This document shows, in pieces, positions 6,043 through 63,995 of a stretch of 64,000 nucleotides of DNA (within the stretch, counting starts at the first letter, position 1; the number at the start of each line of letters is the position of its first letter). Below the pieces are notes generated by a model. The model did no database searches. It saw only the letters and a program-made list of their open reading frames with translations, and was not told the origin of the DNA. This DNA is from Panacibacter ginsenosidivorans. GTDB taxonomy: Bacteria; Bacteroidota; Bacteroidia; Chitinophagales; Chitinophagaceae. The position numbers were made by a program, and so were the translations under genes. The stretch covers positions 806,001 through 870,000 of the forward strand of contig NZ_CP042435.1 of NCBI RefSeq assembly GCF_007971225.1. Reading direction: 5' to 3'.

Positions 6043-6099
6043 TATATGAACCTGGCTGAAGAATGGACATGTAGCTTATGTTGCGTCGCACACTTGTAC
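6043..6099. repeat. Intergenic unit, single, left-facing, family A
   Basis: Tail ATGAACCTGGCTG, then arm GTTGCGTCGCACACTTGTAC at 6080-6099, 34 bases before tonB. The rest of the 216-base gap shows no gene or terminator. Confidence 0.75.
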
Positions 6100-8400: not shown

Positions 8401-8670
8401 CGCAAAAGTATTTCAATTAAAATCTCTGCATTATTGCAAAGTAGTTTTGAAACACATAGAAACATAGGCACATAGCACTTCACATAGGTTTCTATGTGTT
8501 ACTATGTGTTTCTAATGTGGCTATGTGGTTGACTTGCTCAATAGGATTACTTTCAGATGAAGAGTGCGACGCAACAGATGATGCTATGAAATACAAATGC
8601 CGGGCTCATAAAATAACTCTGCATCTCTCCGTCTTTGCGGTTTCTTTTCCTGTGTTTTTCCCATTTTTTT
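8401..8670. other. folC-mutS intergenic region with CACATAG inverted repeat
   Basis: No gene seen. AACACATAGAAAC (8451-8463) is inversely repeated as GTTTCTATGTGTT (8488-8500), with further CTATGTG copies to 8527. A single right-facing repeat unit lies at 8559-8614 (arm GAAGAGTGCGACGCAAC at 8559-8575, tail ending GCCGGGCTCATAAAA). The whole stretch is a patchwork of repeats. Confidence 0.65.
8559..8614. repeat. Intergenic unit, single, right-facing, family A
   Basis: Arm truncated at its GTAC end (GAAGAGTGCGACGCAAC, 8559-8575), with a well-kept tail GATGCTATGAAATACAAATG followed by CCGGGCTCATAAAA. Confidence 0.7.
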
Positions 8671-11390: not shown

Positions 11391-11447
11391 TTTTATGAGC
11401 CAAGCTGTTGTAAATGTAGTATCGGTTGTTGCGTCGCACACTTGTAC
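11391..11447. repeat. Intergenic unit, single, left-facing, family A
   Basis: TTTTATGAGCCAAGC begins two bases after the mutS stop, and the arm GTTGCGTCGCACACTTGTAC is at 11428-11447. It may pair with the diverged tail at 12468-12503 on the far side of the HEPN-like gene. Confidence 0.75.
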
Positions 11448-12573: not shown

Positions 12574-14259
12574 ATGAACTTTTCTATAAAACGATGGCTG
12601 TTATTCTTTCTATTAACTTTCATAGTTGTAGCATGTGAAAATGATTCTAATCCTTCAAAAGAACAGATCTCACAATTAAATCTTAAAAGAGGAGAACTGA
12701 TTTCCTGTGGATCACCCGGTAAGGAATTTGGTACGGTTGATTTTGAAATCAGCTGCGATGAAAAAGTAAAAAAAGATTTCAACCTTGCTATAGAACTGCT
12801 ACATTCTTTTGAGTATGATGAATCAGAAAAAGTCTTTGCCAAAATAATTGATGAAGCGCCGGAATGTGCCATGGCATATTGGGGTGTAGCCATGTGCAGT
12901 TATCATCCGTTATGGGAAGCGCCGTCAGATACCGATCTTAAGAAAGGCGCCGAGGCAATTGCAATTGCAAGATCAATTAATAAAAAATCAGGAAAAGAAT
13001 CGGCGTATATCAATGCAATTGCTGCTTACTACGATGATTGGGATAAAACAAATCCACGTGCAAGGAGCATTAACTTTGAAAAAGCAATGGAGCAGTTGCA
13101 CAATACTTATCCGCAGGATAAAGAAGCTGCCATATTTTATGCGCTTGCTTTAGATGCTGCTGCAGACCCGACCGACAAGACTTATACAAATCAAAAAAAA
13201 GCAGGCGATATACTTAACGCATTATATGCTGCAGAATCAAATCATCCGGGCATTATACATTATATCATTCACACGTATGATTATCCTGGTTTAGCAACAC
13301 TTGCATTACCTGCTGCACGAAGATATGCAGCAGTGGCGCCATCATCTGCGCATGCACTACATATGCCATCGCATATTTTTACAAGGCTTGGGTTGTGGGA
13401 TGAATGCATCAAATCAAATCTTGAATCTGTTGCTGCGGCGCAATGTTATGCAGAGGCATCCGGCATTAAAGGACATTGGGATGAAGAGTTGCATGGGCTC
13501 GACTATCTTACCTATGCTTACCTACAGAAAGGTAATGATGATTCTGCAAAACAAGAGTTGGACTATTTATCAACGATCAAAGAGGTGCATCCTGCAAACT
13601 CTAAAGTTGCTTATGCGTTTGCAGCTATTCCCGCACGTATTGCGCTTGAAACGAAGAATTGGGATGACGCTGCTAACCTGCAACTGCCCCAACTAAATCT
13701 GGCATGGAATAAATTCCCGTGGCAGGAAGCTATTATTCATTTTGCACGTTTGTTAGGTTCTGTAAAATCTCAAAAGATTGATGCCGCAAAATATGAGTTA
13801 GTAAAATTAAATGCACTTCATGATACATTACTACAACAGAAAGATATTTATAAAGCCAACCAGGCGGCTATTCAAATAAAGACTGGTGAGGCATGGATAC
13901 AACTTGCACAAGGCAAAAAAACAGAAGCCTTACAATTGATGAAAACCGCTGCCGATATGGAAGACAGCACTACCAAGCATCCTGTAACGCCGGGTGAAGT
14001 ATTGCCTGCAAGAGAATTATATGCAGATATGTTGTTACAGTTAAATCAAAACGAAAATGCATTGCATGAGTATGAAGCTGTGTTAAACAAAAATCCCAAT
14101 CGCTTTAATAGTTTGTATGGTGCAGGTGTTGCCGCAGGAAGAACCGGCGACGATAATAAAAAAATAATGTATTACAAACAGCTATACACAATAGCGGGTA
14201 AGACATCTGGAAGAACGGAGTTAACAGCAGTAAAATCTTTTCTAAATATTCCATTGTAG
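12574..14259 (+). CDS. TPR-repeat lipoprotein
   Basis: 561 residues from the ATG at 12574; the open frame reaches upstream to a GTG at 12541 with no signal value. The N-terminus is a lipoprotein signal with C21 in FIVVAC, so the mature protein should be lipid-anchored. The body is helical with tetratricopeptide-like units, for example FDYDESEKVF-type and AMAYWGVAMCSYHPLW, and C-terminal PARELYADMLLQLNQNENALHEYEAVLNKNPNRF. Such proteins serve as scaffolds; no enzymatic motif is seen. It is monocistronic and followed closely by a paired repeat. Confidence 0.8.
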   Translation: MNFSIKRWLLFFLLTFIVVACENDSNPSKEQISQLNLKRGELISCGSPGKEFGTVDFEISCDEKVKKDFNLAIELLHSFEYDESEKVFAKIIDEAPECAMAYWGVAMCSYHPLWEAPSDTDLKKGAEAIAIARSINKKSGKESAYINAIAAYYDDWDKTNPRARSINFEKAMEQLHNTYPQDKEAAIFYALALDAAADPTDKTYTNQKKAGDILNALYAAESNHPGIIHYIIHTYDYPGLATLALPAARRYAAVAPSSAHALHMPSHIFTRLGLWDECIKSNLESVAAAQCYAEASGIKGHWDEELHGLDYLTYAYLQKGNDDSAKQELDYLSTIKEVHPANSKVAYAFAAIPARIALETKNWDDAANLQLPQLNLAWNKFPWQEAIIHFARLLGSVKSQKIDAAKYELVKLNALHDTLLQQKDIYKANQAAIQIKTGEAWIQLAQGKKTEALQLMKTAADMEDSTTKHPVTPGEVLPARELYADMLLQLNQNENALHEYEAVLNKNPNRFNSLYGAGVAAGRTGDDNKKIMYYKQLYTIAGKTSGRTELTAVKSFLNIPL

Positions 14260-14260
14260 T

Positions 14261-14399
14261 TTTATGAGCCCAGCGAATATGCGTATGGCATCGCCTGTTG
14301 CGTCGCACATTTGTACGCTTTGTTCAATAATGCTCAGAACGTACAAGTGAGTGACACAACGAAAGCTCAATAGCATTACTGCAGCCTGCTACATAAAAG
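14261..14399. repeat. Intergenic inverted pair, A/B
   Basis: Left arm GTTGCGTCGCACATTTGTAC (14297-14316) faces right arm GTACAAGTGAGTGACACAAC (14341-14360) across 24 bases. The tails TTTATGAGCCCAGC and GCAGCCTGCTACATAAAA form the outer ends. It starts one base after the TPR gene stop. Confidence 0.85.
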
Positions 14400-14455
14400 C
14401 TTTTTTGTTATTCCATAAAAGAAAAATAATCTTTGCCATCCTTTAAAATCATGGC

Positions 14456-17212: not shown

Positions 17213-17340
17213 GCCGAAGTATTTTATAGCATCGCTTGTTGTGTCACTCACTTGTACTTCCTGTTCAATATTGATCTGAACGTTGAAGAGTGCGACGCAA
17301 CGAATGTTTAATTGAAATACAAAACCCGGGTTCAAAAAAA
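17201..17340. repeat. Intergenic inverted pair, B/A
   Basis: Left arm GTTGTGTCACTCACTTGTAC (17238-17257) and right arm GAAGAGTGCGACGCAAC (17285-17301). The right tail ACCCGGGTTCAAAAAAA abuts the rmlD stop. Confidence 0.82.
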
Positions 17341-19518: not shown

Positions 19519-19574
19519 GTACAAGAGTGCGACGCAACGAAAGCTTCATATTTATTCAAAAGCTAAGTACAAAA
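19519..19574. repeat. Intergenic unit, single, right-facing, family A
   Basis: Arm GTACAAGAGTGCGACGCAAC at 19519-19538; tail AAGCTAAGTACAAAAAATTA abuts the stop of the UDP-xylose synthase gene, inside the sugar operon. Confidence 0.75.
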
Positions 19575-21790: not shown

Positions 21791-22204
21791 TTTTATGTTA
21801 CCGGCTTAGAGTACTTTGAGCATTGTATGTTGTGTCACTCACTTCAAGGTTCTGAAGATTGAGCAACAACATAATTCTAATGTTGTAATAAAATAATTTT
21901 ACTGGGCAGTTCCTTTGCCTGATAATTTTACTACAACATACATGATAAGAATAAGCAGCGCAATATTAATTATTGGCCAAAGGATGGATGATAATTCTAA
22001 ATGACGCATACGCACAGTTTTTCGGAGATTAGAATATTGGATATCTTGGTCTTTCAATGTAAAACTAAAAATAAATTCTGAAAGAGAACATTAATAAAAC
22101 CTTTGGAATCAACTAAAATAATAATGTGTTGCTTGTTGATAAAGCGTACAAGAGTGCGACGCAACCAATGTTAAATTAATAATATACAGCTGGGTACAAA
22201 AAAT
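21791..22204. repeat. Intergenic inverted pair, B/A, with a long centre
   Basis: Left arm GTTGTGTCACTCACTT (21829-21844, decayed at the GTAC end) and right arm GTACAAGAGTGCGACGCAAC (22146-22165). The centre of about 300 bases holds a 36-residue membrane-peptide ORF. This gap (21707-22247) contains nothing else recognised. Confidence 0.75.
21899..22009 (-). CDS. Very small membrane protein (36 residues)
   Basis: ATG to TAA frame encoding MRHLELSSILWPIINIALLI and a further ILIMYVVVKLSGKGTAQ tail: a single membrane helix (about 8-28) with a short positively charged C-terminus. The clean hydrophobic pattern supports it; no homologue is recognised. It lies between the two arms of the repeat pair at 21829/22146. 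Confidence 0.45.
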   Translation of the reverse strand: MRHLELSSILWPIINIALLILIMYVVVKLSGKGTAQ

Positions 22205-26584: not shown

Positions 26585-26735
26585 ATTTTGTTGCCCGTCT
26601 GCAGTGTATGTATTTAGCTGCTCTTGCGTCGCACTCTTGTACGCTTTTTTCATTGTTCAGCAGAGTTTGGAACGTACAAGTGAGTGACACAACAGGCGAT
26701 GACCAAATAAGATAAAGTTTGATAAATATTTTTTT
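26583..26735. repeat. Intergenic inverted pair, A/B
   Basis: Left arm CTTGCGTCGCACTCTTGTAC (26623-26642) and right arm GTACAAGTGAGTGACACAAC (26674-26693), 31 bases apart, with AACAGGCGATG after the right arm. Confidence 0.83.
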
Positions 26736-28280: not shown

Positions 28281-28492
28281 TATTAATTAACAAGCTGCAG
28301 TGTTTGTGGCATCTTTGGTTGTGTCACTCACTTGTACGTTTGAATTTTTAATGAACAAATAACGTGGGTTTAGCTATGTGCGAACAAAATATGAAAGCCC
28401 AAAACTTGTAGCTATCAGCTGATAGCTATTTAAAAGTACAAGAGTGCGACGCAACAAAAGCCTAAATAATATTCGAATGCCAGGCACAAAAA
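28281..28492. repeat. Intergenic inverted pair, B/A, containing a 20-bp palindrome
   Basis: Left arm GTTGTGTCACTCACTTGTAC (28318-28337), right arm GTACAAGAGTGCGACGCAAC (28436-28455). Between them is the perfect palindrome TAGCTATCAGCTGATAGCTA (28409-28428). The right tail CCAGGCACAAAAA merges with the next terminator. It fills the 323-base gap between two convergent genes. Confidence 0.85.
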
Positions 28493-32121: not shown

Positions 32122-32177
32122 TTTTTAGATACCAGCAGTAGCTTTTCATGGCGTCTTCGTTGCGTCGCAAGCACTTC
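32122..32177. repeat. Intergenic unit, left-facing, family A (decayed)
   Basis: GTTGCGTCGCAAGCACTTC (32159-32177) with a weak tail. Its probable partner is the right-facing unit at 32701, so the pair brackets the DUF4258 gene. Confidence 0.6.
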
Positions 32178-32218
32178 ATCATTCGTTAAAAATGGCAACA
32201 AAAACATTAACCGTTGAA

Positions 32219-32700: not shown

Positions 32701-32755
32701 GTACAAGTGAGTGACACAACGAAGATGCCACATGCACAAAAGCCGGTTACCAAAA
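32701..32755. repeat. Intergenic unit, right-facing, family B
   Basis: Arm GTACAAGTGAGTGACACAAC (32701-32720), tail GAAGATGCCACATGCACAAA then AGCCGGTTACCAAAA. Confidence 0.78.
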
Positions 32756-34442: not shown

Positions 34443-34498
34443 AATAGAACTTAACTGCAGTATTACTATTAGACTTTTGTTGTGTCACTCACTTGTAC
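34443..34498. repeat. Intergenic unit, single, left-facing, family B
   Basis: Arm GTTGTGTCACTCACTTGTAC at 34479-34498, preceded by AACTGCAGTATTACTATTAG. Confidence 0.75.
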
Positions 34499-37656: not shown

Positions 37657-37727
37657 AATACTCATTTTTTCGTTCAATAATTTGGGAACAGGGAAAATTG
37701 CTGATGGAGAGGAACATGCATGTAGTG

Positions 37728-37806
37728 TTCACCTTCCCTTCGCAGGCATTACCCTGTTCAGGTTCTACGGGTGTAATCTCAGCCTCCATTGAAGGAAGCA
37801 CCCCGG
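37728..37806 (-). promoter_or_regulatory. TPP riboswitch (THI element)
   Basis: Read on the minus strand: CCGGGGTGCTTCC, then GGCTGAGATTACACCC, GTAGAACCTGAACAGGGTAA and TGCCTGCGAAGGGAAGG. These are the conserved pieces of the thi-box in order: the GGGGTGC stem, CTGAGA, ACCTGA, GGxTAATGCC and GCGxAGGGAA. It sits about 70 bases before the receptor start and should switch the receptor off when thiamin pyrophosphate is plentiful. Confidence 0.93.
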
Positions 37807-37852
37807 GAAATAGTAAAAATGGTTGAATAATTGCTGATTAGTATTACCAGCC

Positions 37853-37893
37853 GTACAAGTGAGTGACACAACAGGCGATGATAGCAGTAATAC
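37853..37893. repeat. Intergenic unit, single, right-facing, family B
   Basis: Arm GTACAAGTGAGTGACACAAC (37853-37872), then AGGCGATGATAGCAGTAATA; the outer tail is lost. The rest of the gap 37807-38009 shows no gene. Confidence 0.7.
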
Positions 37894-38810: not shown

Positions 38811-38882
<72 letters not shown>

Positions 38883-38890
38883 CTAAAAGT

Positions 38891-38917
38891 AAAAGCCTCT
38901 TTGTGAGGCTTTTTTCT
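38891..38917 (+). terminator. Terminator after tRNA-fMet
   Basis: AAAGCCTC (38892-38899) pairs with GAGGCTTTT (38905-38913), followed by a T run. The tRNA is a single transcription unit. Confidence 0.88.
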
Positions 38918-38927
38918 TTTATACAAT

Positions 38928-38982
38928 TATGGGCCAGGGTGCAGTAAAAGTATTAAGCTGCCGTTGCGTCGCACTCTTGTAC
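38928..38982. repeat. Intergenic unit, single, left-facing, family A
   Basis: ATGGGCCAGGGTGCAG tail and arm GTTGCGTCGCACTCTTGTAC at 38963-38982, between the tRNA terminator and era. Confidence 0.75.
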
Positions 38983-39041
38983 TTTTATAACTTTATTGAA
39001 CAATAAAACAACTCGGCAATCTTGGGCCTTTGCGGTTAACA

Positions 39042-39911
39042 ATGAAAGCAGGATTCGTAAACATATTTGGTAAGCCAAACGCAGGCAAAAGCACTTTATT
39101 AAATGCATTGCTCGGCGAAAAGCTGGCTATTGTTTCACCAAAAGTGCAAACAACAAGACATCGTATAAAAGGTTTTGTAACAGAACCCGGAAAATACCAG
39201 ATCATATTTTCTGATACCCCGGGCATTATTGAGCCACGTTATAAACTGCAGGAGAAAATGATGCAGTCTGTAAAAAGTGCATTAGAAGATGCAGATGTGG
39301 CATTACTGCTTGTTGATACGACAGAAGGTGTGGAAGAAAACAATAACCTGTTTACTTCCCTGAAATTAAAAGTTCCGGCTATTGTAGTTTTGAATAAGGT
39401 TGATAAGATCGGTGAGAAAAGAATTACAGCAGCAGAAAATTTTTATAGTCAGCAACCTTATTGTAAAAAGCTGGTAAAAATATCAGCACTGAAAAATGAT
39501 AACATACAGGAATTAATAAATGCTATTCTTGAATTTTTACCAGAAGGAGAACCATTTTATCCGGAAGATGATATGACCGATCTGCCCACAAAATTCTTTG
39601 TCGGCGAAATGGTAAGAGAGAAAATTTTTGAATTGTTTGGAGATGAAATACCTTACCACACGGCAGTAATGGTAAATGAATTTAAAGAGAAAGAAACACT
39701 GGTAAAAATACAGGCAGATATAATAGTACAAAGAGAAAGTCAGAAAGGAATATTATTGGGCGAAGGTGGCAAGATGATAAAACAAATAGGTACACTGGCA
39801 AGACAGGATATCGAAAAATTTCTTCAACAAAAAGTATTTTTGCAGCTCTTCGTAAAAGTAAGACCTAAATGGAGAGACAATGAAATGCATTTGAAAGAAT
39901 ATGGATATTAA
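39042..39911 (+). CDS. era: GTPase Era
   Basis: 289 residues from MKAGFVNIFGKPNAGKST; an upstream in-frame ATG at 39030 would add four residues. G1 is GKPNAGKS at 10-17, G3 is DTPGI, G4 is NKVD. A C-terminal KH domain carries the QADIIVQRESQKGILLGEGGKMIKQIG pattern. Era binds the 3' end of 16S rRNA and is needed for 30S maturation. It is followed after 79 bases by another ribosome-assembly GTPase gene, der. Confidence 0.95.
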   Translation: MKAGFVNIFGKPNAGKSTLLNALLGEKLAIVSPKVQTTRHRIKGFVTEPGKYQIIFSDTPGIIEPRYKLQEKMMQSVKSALEDADVALLLVDTTEGVEENNNLFTSLKLKVPAIVVLNKVDKIGEKRITAAENFYSQQPYCKKLVKISALKNDNIQELINAILEFLPEGEPFYPEDDMTDLPTKFFVGEMVREKIFELFGDEIPYHTAVMVNEFKEKETLVKIQADIIVQRESQKGILLGEGGKMIKQIGTLARQDIEKFLQQKVFLQLFVKVRPKWRDNEMHLKEYGY

Positions 39912-41312: not shown

Positions 41313-41665
41313 TTTTAAACCACGCTGCATTACTACTATCAGGCGTTCCTTGCGTCGCACACTTGTACTGCAATAAACAAATGAGCAAATAAAAAACAAG
41401 CCCGTCCAGGAATAGACAGGCTTTAACCAATTCTTGAAAACTTGTAATACCGATCTTTGTCCTTGATCATGTGTTACAGCTGCAAAAGAACAGCAATACC
41501 GTCGTTATAAAAATAGATGGCAGCTCCCTTTGTTTGTAACAATTAAATAAACTCAGTTGTAGTAGAATTATTACAGCAAAAAATATTGCCGGCTAATGTT
41601 TAAAGTGCACAAGTGTGCGACGCAACAAAAGTTTAATAGCATTGCTTATGTCTGGCTCATAAAAA
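41313..41665. repeat. Intergenic inverted pair, A/A, with a long centre
   Basis: Left arm CTTGCGTCGCACACTTGTAC (41349-41368) and right arm GCACAAGTGTGCGACGCAAC (41607-41626). The right tail TCTGGCTCATAAAAA abuts the priA stop. The 238-base centre holds a minus-strand terminator and no ORF; the gap has no other gene. Confidence 0.8.
41390..41423 (-). terminator. Minus-strand terminator inside the der-priA gap
   Basis: On the minus strand AAGCCTGTC pairs with GACGGGCTT (one G-U), followed by GTTTTTTA. It lies about 240 bases beyond the priA stop, so it ends either the plsC-priA transcript or an unannotated short RNA from the centre of the repeat pair. Confidence 0.6.
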
Positions 41666-45013: not shown

Positions 45014-45071
45014 ATTTATGAACCCGGCTATTACATCTAAAAGCATCACCTGTTGCGTCGCACACTTGTAC
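45014..45071. repeat. Intergenic unit, single, left-facing, family A
   Basis: Tail TTTATGAACCCGGCTATTAC, arm GTTGCGTCGCACACTTGTAC at 45052-45071, between plsC and the desaturase gene. Confidence 0.78.
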
Positions 45072-46678: not shown

Positions 46679-46730
46679 GTACAAGTGAGTGACACAACCG
46701 GTGATGCCATAAAAAACAATAGCCTGCAAA
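46679..46730. repeat. Intergenic unit, single, right-facing, family B
   Basis: Arm GTACAAGTGAGTGACACAAC (46679-46698) starts 10 bases after one stop codon, and its tail ends at the stop of the convergent MFS gene. It fills the gap completely. Confidence 0.8.
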
Positions 46731-48011: not shown

Positions 48012-48019
48012 CAAATGTA
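48012..48019 (-). promoter_or_regulatory. -7 element TACATTTG overlapping a repeat arm
   Basis: TAnnTTTG match on the minus strand, 36 bases before the MFS start. Its first three bases are the TAC end of the arm at 48017-48036. Confidence 0.35.
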
Positions 48020-48075
48020 CAAGAGTGCGACGCAACAGTTGATGCTATGAAAAATAAAAGCCGGGTTCACAAAAA
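48017..48075. repeat. Intergenic unit, single, right-facing, family A
   Basis: Arm GTACAAGAGTGCGACGCAAC (48017-48036), tail GATGCTATGAAAAATAAAAG then CCGGGTTCACAAAAA, abutting the stop of the deoxynucleoside kinase gene. Confidence 0.82.
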
Positions 48076-48726: not shown

Positions 48727-48785
48727 CTTTTTTTGAACCAGGCAACAAATCAATGTGCTTCGTTCCTTGCGTCGCACTCTTCTGC
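48727..48785. repeat. Intergenic unit, single, left-facing, family A
   Basis: Tail TTTTGAACCAGGCAACAAAT, arm CTTGCGTCGCACTCTT (48766-48781) with the GTAC end altered to CTGC. Lies between the dNK start and folK. Confidence 0.7.
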
Positions 48786-53328: not shown

Positions 53329-53549
53329 TTTTTGAGCCCAACATTAGAATAGGCATGAATCTTTCGTTGCGTCGCACTCTTGTGCTGCTATGCGGACAGT
53401 AGCAGATGAATAGACAAAATAAAAAGTGAAATCGCGAAAATGATTTGACTTTTGCCCTTTCACTTTTCACTGATAAATAAAGTTCCGAACGTACAAGTGA
53501 GTGACACAACAGGCGATGCCAAAAGTTATTAAGCTGAAAAACAAAAAAT
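53329..53549. repeat. Intergenic inverted pair, A/B
   Basis: Left arm GTTGCGTCGCACTCTTGTGC (53366-53385), right arm GTACAAGTGAGTGACACAAC (53491-53510). The centre carries a further inverted repeat, AAAAGTGAAA (53422-53431) against TTTCACTTTT (53458-53467). Tails begin just after one stop and end at the next ATG. Confidence 0.83.
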
Positions 53550-55389: not shown

Positions 55390-55414
55390 GTGAGTTTTAA
55401 ATATTTCGATAGCT

Positions 55415-55470
55415 GAAGTGTGCGAAGCAACGAAGATGCCATTAAATACAAAAACCGGGACACAAAAAAA
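55415..55470. repeat. Intergenic unit, single, right-facing, family A (decayed)
   Basis: GAAGTGTGCGAAGCAAC (55415-55431; the core palindrome is broken by one base), tail GATGCCATTAAATACAAAAA then CCGGGACACAAAAAAA, whose A run is the T run of the rpsP terminator. Confidence 0.68.
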
Positions 55471-56082: not shown

Positions 56083-56264
56083 ATTTTTTTGGAACCGGGC
56101 TTTGGAACATATGGCATCGACTGTTGTGTCACTCACTTGTACGTTAGGAAATTTTAATGAACAATTAAACATTTATAGCGTTGCACGCTCAATTGCAAAC
56201 TAAAAGCACAAGAGTGCGACGCAACGTAAGATGCACAAAGTACTTAAGCCAGGTACAAAAGGTT
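56083..56264. repeat. Intergenic inverted pair, B/A
   Basis: Left arm GTTGTGTCACTCACTTGTAC (56123-56142), right arm GCACAAGAGTGCGACGCAAC (56206-56225), tails GGAACCGGGCTTTGGAA and AAGCCAGGTACAAAAGG. The 398-base gap (55966-56363) shows nothing else. Confidence 0.84.
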
Positions 56265-58418: not shown

Positions 58419-58567
58419 TTTTATGTACCCACCGGCAGGAATACTATTTGGCTGTCGTTGCGTCGCACTCTTGTACACTTTTTTCACTGTCCGGCTTTCT
58501 ACAGAATATTGAAGTGTGCGACGCAACGAAAGTTTCATAACAATACAGAATGCCGGCTTCAAAAAGT
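58419..58567. repeat. Intergenic inverted pair, A/A
   Basis: Left arm GTTGCGTCGCACTCTTGTAC (58457-58476), right arm GAAGTGTGCGACGCAAC (58511-58527), 34 bases apart, tails TATGTACCCACCGGCAGG and ATGCCGGCTTCAAAAAG. It occupies most of the gap before bshC. Confidence 0.84.
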
Positions 58568-61280: not shown

Positions 61281-61486
61281 TTTTTTGTGAACAGGCAGAA
61301 TTGCTACTATTAAACTTTTGTTGTGTCACTCACTTGTACTGCTGAATAAATTTCAGCTATCAGCAGTCGGGTATCAGTTAAAACTTGCATCTGAATGCTG
61401 ATCCCTGATAGCTCCTGCCTATTCCGAACGTATAAGTGAGTGACACAAGAGGCGATGCTATAAATACTGAAGCTCATAAATAAAAA
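61281..61486. repeat. Intergenic inverted pair, B/B, with nested inverted repeat
   Basis: Left arm GTTGTGTCACTCACTTGTAC (61320-61339), right arm GTATAAGTGAGTGACACAAG (61430-61449). The centre carries AGCTATCAG (61355-61363) inversely repeated as CTGATAGCT (61405-61413). It fills the 306-base gap. Confidence 0.83.
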
Positions 61487-63934: not shown

Positions 63935-63995
63935 TTTTTTTCTGAGCCTGGCTAAAATTATGCTATTAAGCTTCTGTTGCGTCGCACTCTTGTAC
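63935..63995. repeat. Intergenic unit, left-facing, family A, at window edge
   Basis: Tail TCTGAGCCTGGCTAAAATTA, arm GTTGCGTCGCACTCTTGTAC (63976-63995). A right partner may lie beyond the window end. Confidence 0.78.

Follow-up and report, generated by a model that had tools for sequence, protein, structure and literature searches.

The 64-kb window (the whole stretch of DNA analysed here) carries many copies of a short sequence, each of which we call an arm, and with moderate confidence we regard the arms as copies of a DNA site that is dispersed between genes, specific to one bacterial family and organised like REPs/BIMEs, rather than as parts of long hairpins. On this reading the bias towards pairs of two unlike types, A and B, would stem from the way dimers multiplied and survived. 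All arms share a core of 19 bp, TTGYGTCRCNCNCTTGTAC, which is asymmetric apart from its middle 7 bp. Type A is recognised by TTGCGTCGCAC and type B by TTGTGTCACTC; the two cores differ in four bases, positions 3, 7 and also 9 among them, the last of which lies outside the symmetry. At the locus from which the analysis started, the core of arm A occupies 14298-14316 on the plus strand (TTGCGTCGCACATTTGTAC) and that of arm B 14359-14341 on the minus strand (TTGTGTCACTCACTTGTAC), giving a core-to-core distance of 61. Each arm reaches from about −41 to +38 around its core, as judged from the base-frequency profile and the distances to stop codons, and the whole pair therefore extends over 14257-14400, beginning at the stop codon of the upstream gene (14257-14259).

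Independent listing of the arms in the window reproduced the counts of an earlier sequence-only reading, namely 36 arms (23 A and 13 B, 18 per strand) and 11 facing pairs, eight of them A/B. The listing allowed four mismatches; a match at 2053, within a gene, was discounted as chance, and a diverged A arm at 32160-32178 (+), which exceeds this limit, was added from a separate reading and faces the B arm at 32701-32719 (−) at 559 bp. Core matches place the other mixed pairs at 17239-17257 (+, B) with 17282-17300 (−, A), at 26624-26642 (+, A) with 26674-26692 (−, B), at 28319-28337 (+, B) with 28436-28454 (−, A), at 53367-53385 (+, A) with 53491-53509 (−, B), at 56124-56142 (+, B) with 56206-56224 (−, A) and, as a wide pair, at 21830-21848 (+, B) with 22146-22164 (−, A). 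Two pairs are A/A, the wide one formed by 41350-41368 (+) and 41607-41625 (−) and that formed by 58458-58476 (+) and 58508-58526 (−), and one is B/B (61321-61339, +, and 61430-61448, −). Single A arms were found at 902-920 (−), 6081-6099 (+), 8556-8574 (−), 11429-11447 (+), 19519-19537 (−) and 63977-63995 (+); the remaining single arms are described below together with their counterparts in a relative.

In the whole genome (5,528,026 bases, a single contig, of which the window takes up 806001-870000) the core occurs 2,391 times (1202 + 1189) with up to two mismatches, while the core read backwards does not occur at this threshold in the same genome, so the motif is not due to chance. An exact match to TTGYGTCRCNCNCTTSNNC was found in 158 of 294 genomes of the same family. 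Copy number ranges from 0 to 2,139 per genome and is uneven inside genera, with none in G004 and 449 in G126. Since the backward control reaches 0-2 hits per genome in these 294 genomes, those with one or two hits may reflect chance. An even sample of 296 genomes across the phylum gave 11 with a match, comprising eight family members (our own genome included) and three outsiders with one hit each. The element was seen only in one family, the Chitinophagaceae as judged by record titles, and is patchy within it. Titles of the 22 named stretches holding a B/A dimer are those of Chitinophagaceae MAGs, Segetibacter and Limnovirga soli, the latter two of which we take to be members of this family. 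The A core is also present in 21 stretches of viral contigs (L193-L213). Our searches of open-licence papers gave no description of this repeat.

Because 11 pairs are too few for a statistical test, we used a larger sample of 1.554 Mb of the same genome (28%), with 804 arms at up to two mismatches, referred to below as our own sample. Neighbouring arms less than 400 bp apart face each other in 173 of 189 cases, the others being back to back (8) or in the same direction (8). Among relatives, 74 of 76 such neighbours face each other, a count in which overlapping loci were kept and to which 22 loci picked for a facing dimer contribute 36 pairs. When four of the 173 facing pairs were left out, one arm being of neither type, 130 of the remaining 169 were mixed, 36 were AA and 3 were BB. 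Random assortment gave a mean of 81.6 mixed pairs (sd 6.3, maximum 108 in 10,000 permutations), so that the earlier observation of preferential A/B pairing is confirmed for this genome. Our own arithmetic from the type frequencies gives about 27 BB and about 60 AA pairs as the expectation. The two orders are about equally common among mixed pairs (AB 69, BA 61), and the 173 facing pairs show preferred spacings of 61 bp (25 pairs) and 67-69 bp (30 pairs). Grouped by core distance, mixed pairs make up 43/55 at 58-72 bp, 7/12 at 72-90 bp, 24/27 at 90-110 bp, 20/25 at 110-130 bp and 26/31 at 130-160 bp, or 120/150 over the whole range of 58-160 bp. At 160-400 bp mixing was not significant (10/19), and facing single arms up to 2.5 kb apart showed no mixing bias (51/108, expected 47.3). 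Spacers longer than 90 bp, for instance window 53386-53490 and 61340-61429, are mostly unrelated, but by eye short phrases such as TGCCTATTGCC recur in them.

The A/B bias is strong in this genome but is not a general rule of the element. In G093, which belongs to another genus, only 6 of 26 pairs are mixed, with 18 AA and 2 BB, where about 6.6 mixed pairs are expected from 136 A and 24 B arms. In G001, three of six pairs are mixed, again as the arm frequencies predict; the bias is therefore not universal. Mixed pairs number two of four in G025 and 9 of 14 distinct unselected pairs in the 22 named loci, which were chosen for holding a B/A dimer. It has to be considered whether A and B are halves of a single functional unit that requires one of each, such as a site for a heterodimeric protein or for recombination between unlike ends. 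The near absence of BB among predominantly mixed pairs, the nearly equal frequency of the two orders and the preferred spacings all speak for such a unit. We nevertheless think it unlikely, given that 458 of the 804 arms in our own sample lie outside any close facing pair, that 36 AA pairs exist, and that G093 lacks the bias, which the six G001 pairs do not show either. Its absence in G093 indicates that the A/B preference is not a working requirement of the element.

The sequence-only reading had also held that A and B arms pair less well than like arms would, and computed hairpins agree. With DNA parameters and consensus cores joined by one spacer, A/B hairpins reach −13 to −16.5 kcal/mol, about half the stability of A/A (−25 to −29) and B/B (−25) hairpins. 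This raises the possibility, which we regard as real though rather doubtful, that A/A and B/B dimers extrude strong hairpins and are removed by hairpin nucleases or replication slippage, so that A/B dimers remain. Besides the energies, the restriction of significant mixing to 160 bp is in keeping with such purging, and protection from hairpin cleavage has been offered as an idea for REP heterodimers (PMC3733652). Hairpin loss alone does not fit, however, because BB pairs fall further below expectation than AA pairs although the BB hairpin is not the stronger, because mixing stays steady from 61 to 160 bp without fall-off, and because AA pairs show no preference for an extra mismatch at position 11 (18/35, expected 17.4). 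The lack of mixing in G093 also tells against it, as does the existence in G026 of two A arms that form a perfect palindrome without spacer (L038:3648-3683).

We favour instead the reading in which the A/B preference is most likely a product of dimer multiplication and survival within this lineage, a close pair corresponding to a REP-like head-to-head dimer. Mixed dimers of the 61-bp class share their spacer (identity 0.665) and one outer flank (0.502 vs 0.426 for random A arms), the other flank being close to background (0.422 vs 0.415). The shared spacer and flank point to partial common descent, and the 61-bp dimers may thus derive in part from A/B founders. Descent alone does not fit the 67-69-bp class, since its outer flanks are at background (0.421 and 0.393). 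Mixed dimers, whose hairpins are about half as stable, may in addition be lost less often, which would give them a survival advantage. The mode of spread, too, is something we infer. The heterodimer bias of paired bacterial repeats still awaits an explanation, and the present element, with a four-base difference between A and B, about 2,400 copies and a related genus without the bias, offers a clean test.

The 7-bp centre of the arms had been proposed to be a covarying palindrome. In line with this, positions 3 and 7 read C..G or T..A in 752 of 759 arms with no more than one mismatch. Position 9, however, is locked to the same haplotypes, being A in 493 C..G arms and T in 260 of the T..A type; the 20 commonest haplotypes contain some ten exceptions. 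As position 9 has no symmetric partner within the 7 bases and follows all the same, the joint change at 3 and 7 within this genome reflects haplotype linkage and is no proof of symmetry; the difference between A and B is mainly one of two fixed haplotypes. Counts over 58 relatives are suggestive of GYGTCRC being kept symmetric. The form changed at both 3 and 7 with A at position 9 (T..A) occurs 76 times in 27 of the 58 genomes, although 30 of the 76 are in G121 and this form also lies one step from type B, whereas the half-changed form in which only position 7 differs (C..A) occurs 17 times in 12 of them. The idea of a symmetric protein site stands only in part, and not in the form proposed. 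The 76 vs 17 occurrences lend some support to a symmetric centre; the conserved core as a whole is 19 bp long and asymmetric, only its middle 7 bp are symmetric, and the types also differ at position 9.

The core is conserved far better than the weak consensus that surrounds it from about −41 to +38. Random pairs of arms in our own sample agree at 0.816 of core positions and 0.384 of flank positions, so the arms are not fresh copies. The arm as a whole is an unfolded, weakly conserved stretch of about 80 bp around the core, and its base-frequency profile has a T-run from −39 to −34, a weak CC.GG around −29 to −25 and two further weak modules, one spanning −12 to −4 and the other +33 to +38. 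Mutual information within A and within B arms peaks between near neighbours in the weak modules, which we read as alternative words and not as base pairs. Mixing of the −12 to −4 module within pairs amounts to its linkage to core type (60/115, expected 59.6). The tail module is not mixed overall (37/158, expected 34.3) and slightly so below 72 bp (25/51, expected 19.1, P 0.02, uncorrected). By eye, the profile and the low-copy loci also contain a weak internal repeat, A.......T..AGC, at about −18 to −6 and again 43 bases later at +25 to +37. A short ORF starting from ATG or TTG near −35 was rejected because its frame relative to the core shifts between copies, again judged by eye.

No structure was detected in single arms. 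The mean z-score for folding of 60 of our own arms on each strand was +0.06 and −0.07, the RNAalifold consensus of samples of 60 had an energy of 0, and Rfam gave no match at the arms; an RNA or single-strand fold of the arm can accordingly be discarded. The two arms of a pair are, outside the core, no more alike than random arms (0.387 vs 0.384). The sequence-only reading had suggested that pairs are not maintained as long hairpins, and the 458 arms outside close facing pairs together with the lack of folding in single arms bear this out. Each arm may rather be read as double-stranded DNA by a putative sequence-specific protein.

We next consider the location of the arms relative to genes, using a rough gene caller of our own in place of the annotation (1,211 genes, 83.6% coding). 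Gaps of at least 20 bp between called genes hold 719 of the 804 arms; the other 85 lie at stretch ends or overlap called genes, two groups that were not separated. Over the first 464 kb, gaps hold 213 of the 234 arms, while 4 are at ends and 17 within called genes; 11 of these last carry two mismatches. By gap type, arms occupy 102 of the 146 between convergent genes, 358 of the 642 between co-directional genes and 78 of the 157 between divergent ones. Again within the first 464 kb, 114 arms have a co-oriented stop codon no more than 300 nt away, and 49 of them sit 38-44 nt past it; facing pairs, moreover, would suit convergent gene ends, as might be expected if the arms were transcription terminators. 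We judge this highly unlikely, because genes near the arms run in almost random directions (the sense fraction is 0.58 immediately behind an arm, 0.41 immediately ahead of it and 0.47-0.55 farther out), arms are found in half of the divergent gaps, a single arm has no fold, and the T-run precedes the conserved block. Many arms begin directly at a stop codon, as at window 14257-14298. A second group lies 84-94 nt past the stop, where by eye several arms follow an apparent terminator hairpin and T-run.

The related genomes compared with ours are for the most part about 70-85% identical, the collinear chains with G001 being mostly 72-80%. In three such chains, 11 of our 15 arms are matched in G001 by an arm of like orientation at the same place, a mapping that leans towards matches since alignments can run through arms. 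Two G001 arms in the chains lack a partner in our genome, besides one chance match. Nine of the 11 orthologous arms are of the same type (about 5.6 expected) and two have switched at positions 3, 7 and 9 together, so arms sometimes change type. Within the window, the B arm at 32701 and the single B arms at 34480-34498 (+) and 37853-37871 (−) keep both place and type, as does the single A arm at 38964-38982 (+), which was matched by eye just beyond a collinear block. Single A arms at 45053-45071 (+) and 48767-48785 (+) are conserved, and so is the place of the single A arm at 55412-55430 (−), which has CTTC for CGTC. The A arms at 41350 and 53367 are conserved as well, that at 41607-41625 having no G001 match within 250 bp and the partner of 53367 not being conserved; the B arm at 56124 has type A at the same place in G001. 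The single arms at 46679-46697 (−, B) and 48017-48035 (−, A) were not found in G001. Over 12 orthologous arms (the 11 plus 38964), core identity is 0.89 (random 0.81) and flank identity 0.35-0.51 (random 0.33-0.41), showing that the core is what is kept. Stretches of G001 show apparent synteny breaks at arm-bearing regions (window 38883-39043 and 56150-64313), and 64313-69001, which runs beyond the window into L041, is inverted in G001. Rfam places a TPP riboswitch at window 37717-37815 (−) and a tRNA gene at 38811-38882 (+).

Orientation has a further effect on the arrangement of the arms, and the resulting deficit of same-direction copies is a stronger feature than the A/B bias. Consecutive single arms in our own sample alternate in direction (246 opposite, 69 same), with 214 opposite vs 36 same at 0.4-2.5 kb and 18 vs 20 beyond 3 kb. 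When positions and close pairs were fixed and the singles flipped at random, 89.4 same-direction pairs were expected within 1.6 kb and only 38 were seen, none of 500 permutations being as low in either bin. Compared with random placement in gaps, same-direction pairs at 0.4-1.2 kb reach about 0.2 of expectation, back-to-back pairs about half and facing pairs 0.87-1.49, so that facing arms are not depleted. The deficit recurs in G093 (6 vs 14.5 expected within 1.6 kb; fractions 0.008 and 0.015 in the two bins). It was not significant in G001 (1 vs 4.5 expected), and the 24 singles of the named loci showed none (3 vs 4.0 expected). At 2.5-3.5 kb same-direction pairs are in excess, by 1.29 relative to gap placement and weakly relative to flipping (200 vs 188.9), an excess that is reversed in G093 (24 vs 30.1). 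Beside close pairs there is little alternation of singles (103 to 85), which is what one would expect of a pair that repels arms of either direction. In our own sample the orientation pattern is independent of gene direction and of place on the chromosome.

Two explanations of this pattern were set aside. A need for arms in couples at long range is not supported, the alternation being without a parity effect (pair positions 41/47, between 21/25). Exclusion through recombination between direct copies is unlikely, as only 39% of flank positions agree and same-direction copies close to each other differ no more than random ones do. We put forward, tentatively and with low confidence, that the arms form an orientation-aware, chromosome-wide pattern in which a copy keeps others of its own direction out of the surrounding 1.6 kb or so, while facing copies may come into contact. 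If so, something would read the arms directionally along the DNA over kilobases, be it uptake, looping or strand-specific processing. We know of no report of such an orientation-aware genome mark in Bacteroidota. The orientation-dependent spacing is the part most deserving of follow-up, for it allows one to ask which process senses site orientation over kilobases of a bacterial chromosome.

One candidate for such a process is DNA uptake, with the arms as signposts spread by molecular drive; a machinery preferring core-bearing DNA would let the core accumulate and persist in place. The arms resemble DUS/USS, which likewise have a short asymmetric core present some 2,000 times, and here the core, at about 2,400 copies, is overrepresented without strand bias along the chromosome. 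It is kept while its flanks drift, its copy number is very uneven between related genomes, and same-strand spacing is fairly regular, with a CV of 0.53 that is biased low by the use of 20-kb pieces (0.64 in G001, 0.77 in G025). We consider this explanation improbable all the same. Same-strand spacing in G093 is irregular (CV 1.04 over 460 kb), and the arms differ from uptake sequences in being mostly intergenic, face to face when close, and spaced according to orientation. By comparison, PMC1939737 places 65% and 35% of uptake sequences in two species inside reading frames and reports no effect of their orientation on uptake. The same paper cites Karlin et al. for significantly even spacing and itself describes the spacing as less even than compaction would need (PMC1939737).

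The likeness to REP/BIME elements (GTAG and CGTC superfamilies) is closer. Those elements also reach up to thousands of copies, unevenly among relatives, and form mostly head-to-head dimers with spacers mostly of 20-100 bp, head-to-tail dimers being few or absent (PMC3733652). Heterodimers are preferred in many REP families and homodimers in others, a bias that varies between species and is called there without obvious explanation (PMC3733652). Correspondingly, 173 of 189 close neighbours here are in opposite, facing orientation, and heterodimers are preferred in this genome (130/169) and not in G093 (6/26). Type A cores include CGTC and type B cores TGTC, both of which can occur in the heads of CGTC-REPs (PMC3733652). 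The arms differ in that a single one, about 80 bp long, is not the palindromic stem-loop that defines a REP unit of either the GTAG or the CGTC type; the tag letters of the CGTC type are present and its 8-9 bp stem is absent. Moreover, the same-direction deficit reaches 1.6 kb, while the scarcity of head-to-tail REPs concerns neighbouring units and not kilobases (PMC3733652). The arms thus resemble REP dimers yet fall outside the REP definition, and their pairing bias is a known kind of phenomenon.

The proteins checked as partners (RAYT, GIY-YIG and arm-neighbour proteins) yielded no binding protein or copying enzyme for the arms. RAYT (Y1_Tnp), another point of difference from REP, had no match in our genome, where 18 candidates were scored, or in the arm-rich G025, and was rejected as partner. 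Across 30 family and order genomes, strong Y1_Tnp matches (E below 1e-15) occur in 10 of 13 arm-rich vs 7 of 17 arm-poor genomes, which may reflect a weak link among relatives. An abundant non-palindromic repeat in a genome that lacks RAYT broadens the range of possible REP-like elements. A small GIY-YIG nuclease of the Ssn type was a further candidate. Our genome has two GIY-YIG matches, the listed one in a frame of 605 aa, and all 60 genomes examined have 1-10, whether arm-rich or arm-free, with no visible relation to arm number, and such a nuclease seems an unlikely partner. Like MITEs, the arms are non-coding and dispersed, and facing arms could be read as terminal inverted repeats; unlike them, more than half of the arms are single and the flanks of copies are only 38% identical. 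Ten proteins neighbouring arms at 17 loci in low-copy genomes included no member of a transposase family that might be an autonomous parent, and three of the ten had no Pfam match. Integron attC boxes read RYYYAAC and GTTRRRY; by eye, the arm core begins GTTGYG and not GTTRRR. Finally, Thermoflavifilum aggregans presumably belongs to the same order as the host. REP counts for this species and for two Flavobacterium species are given in PMC12306157.
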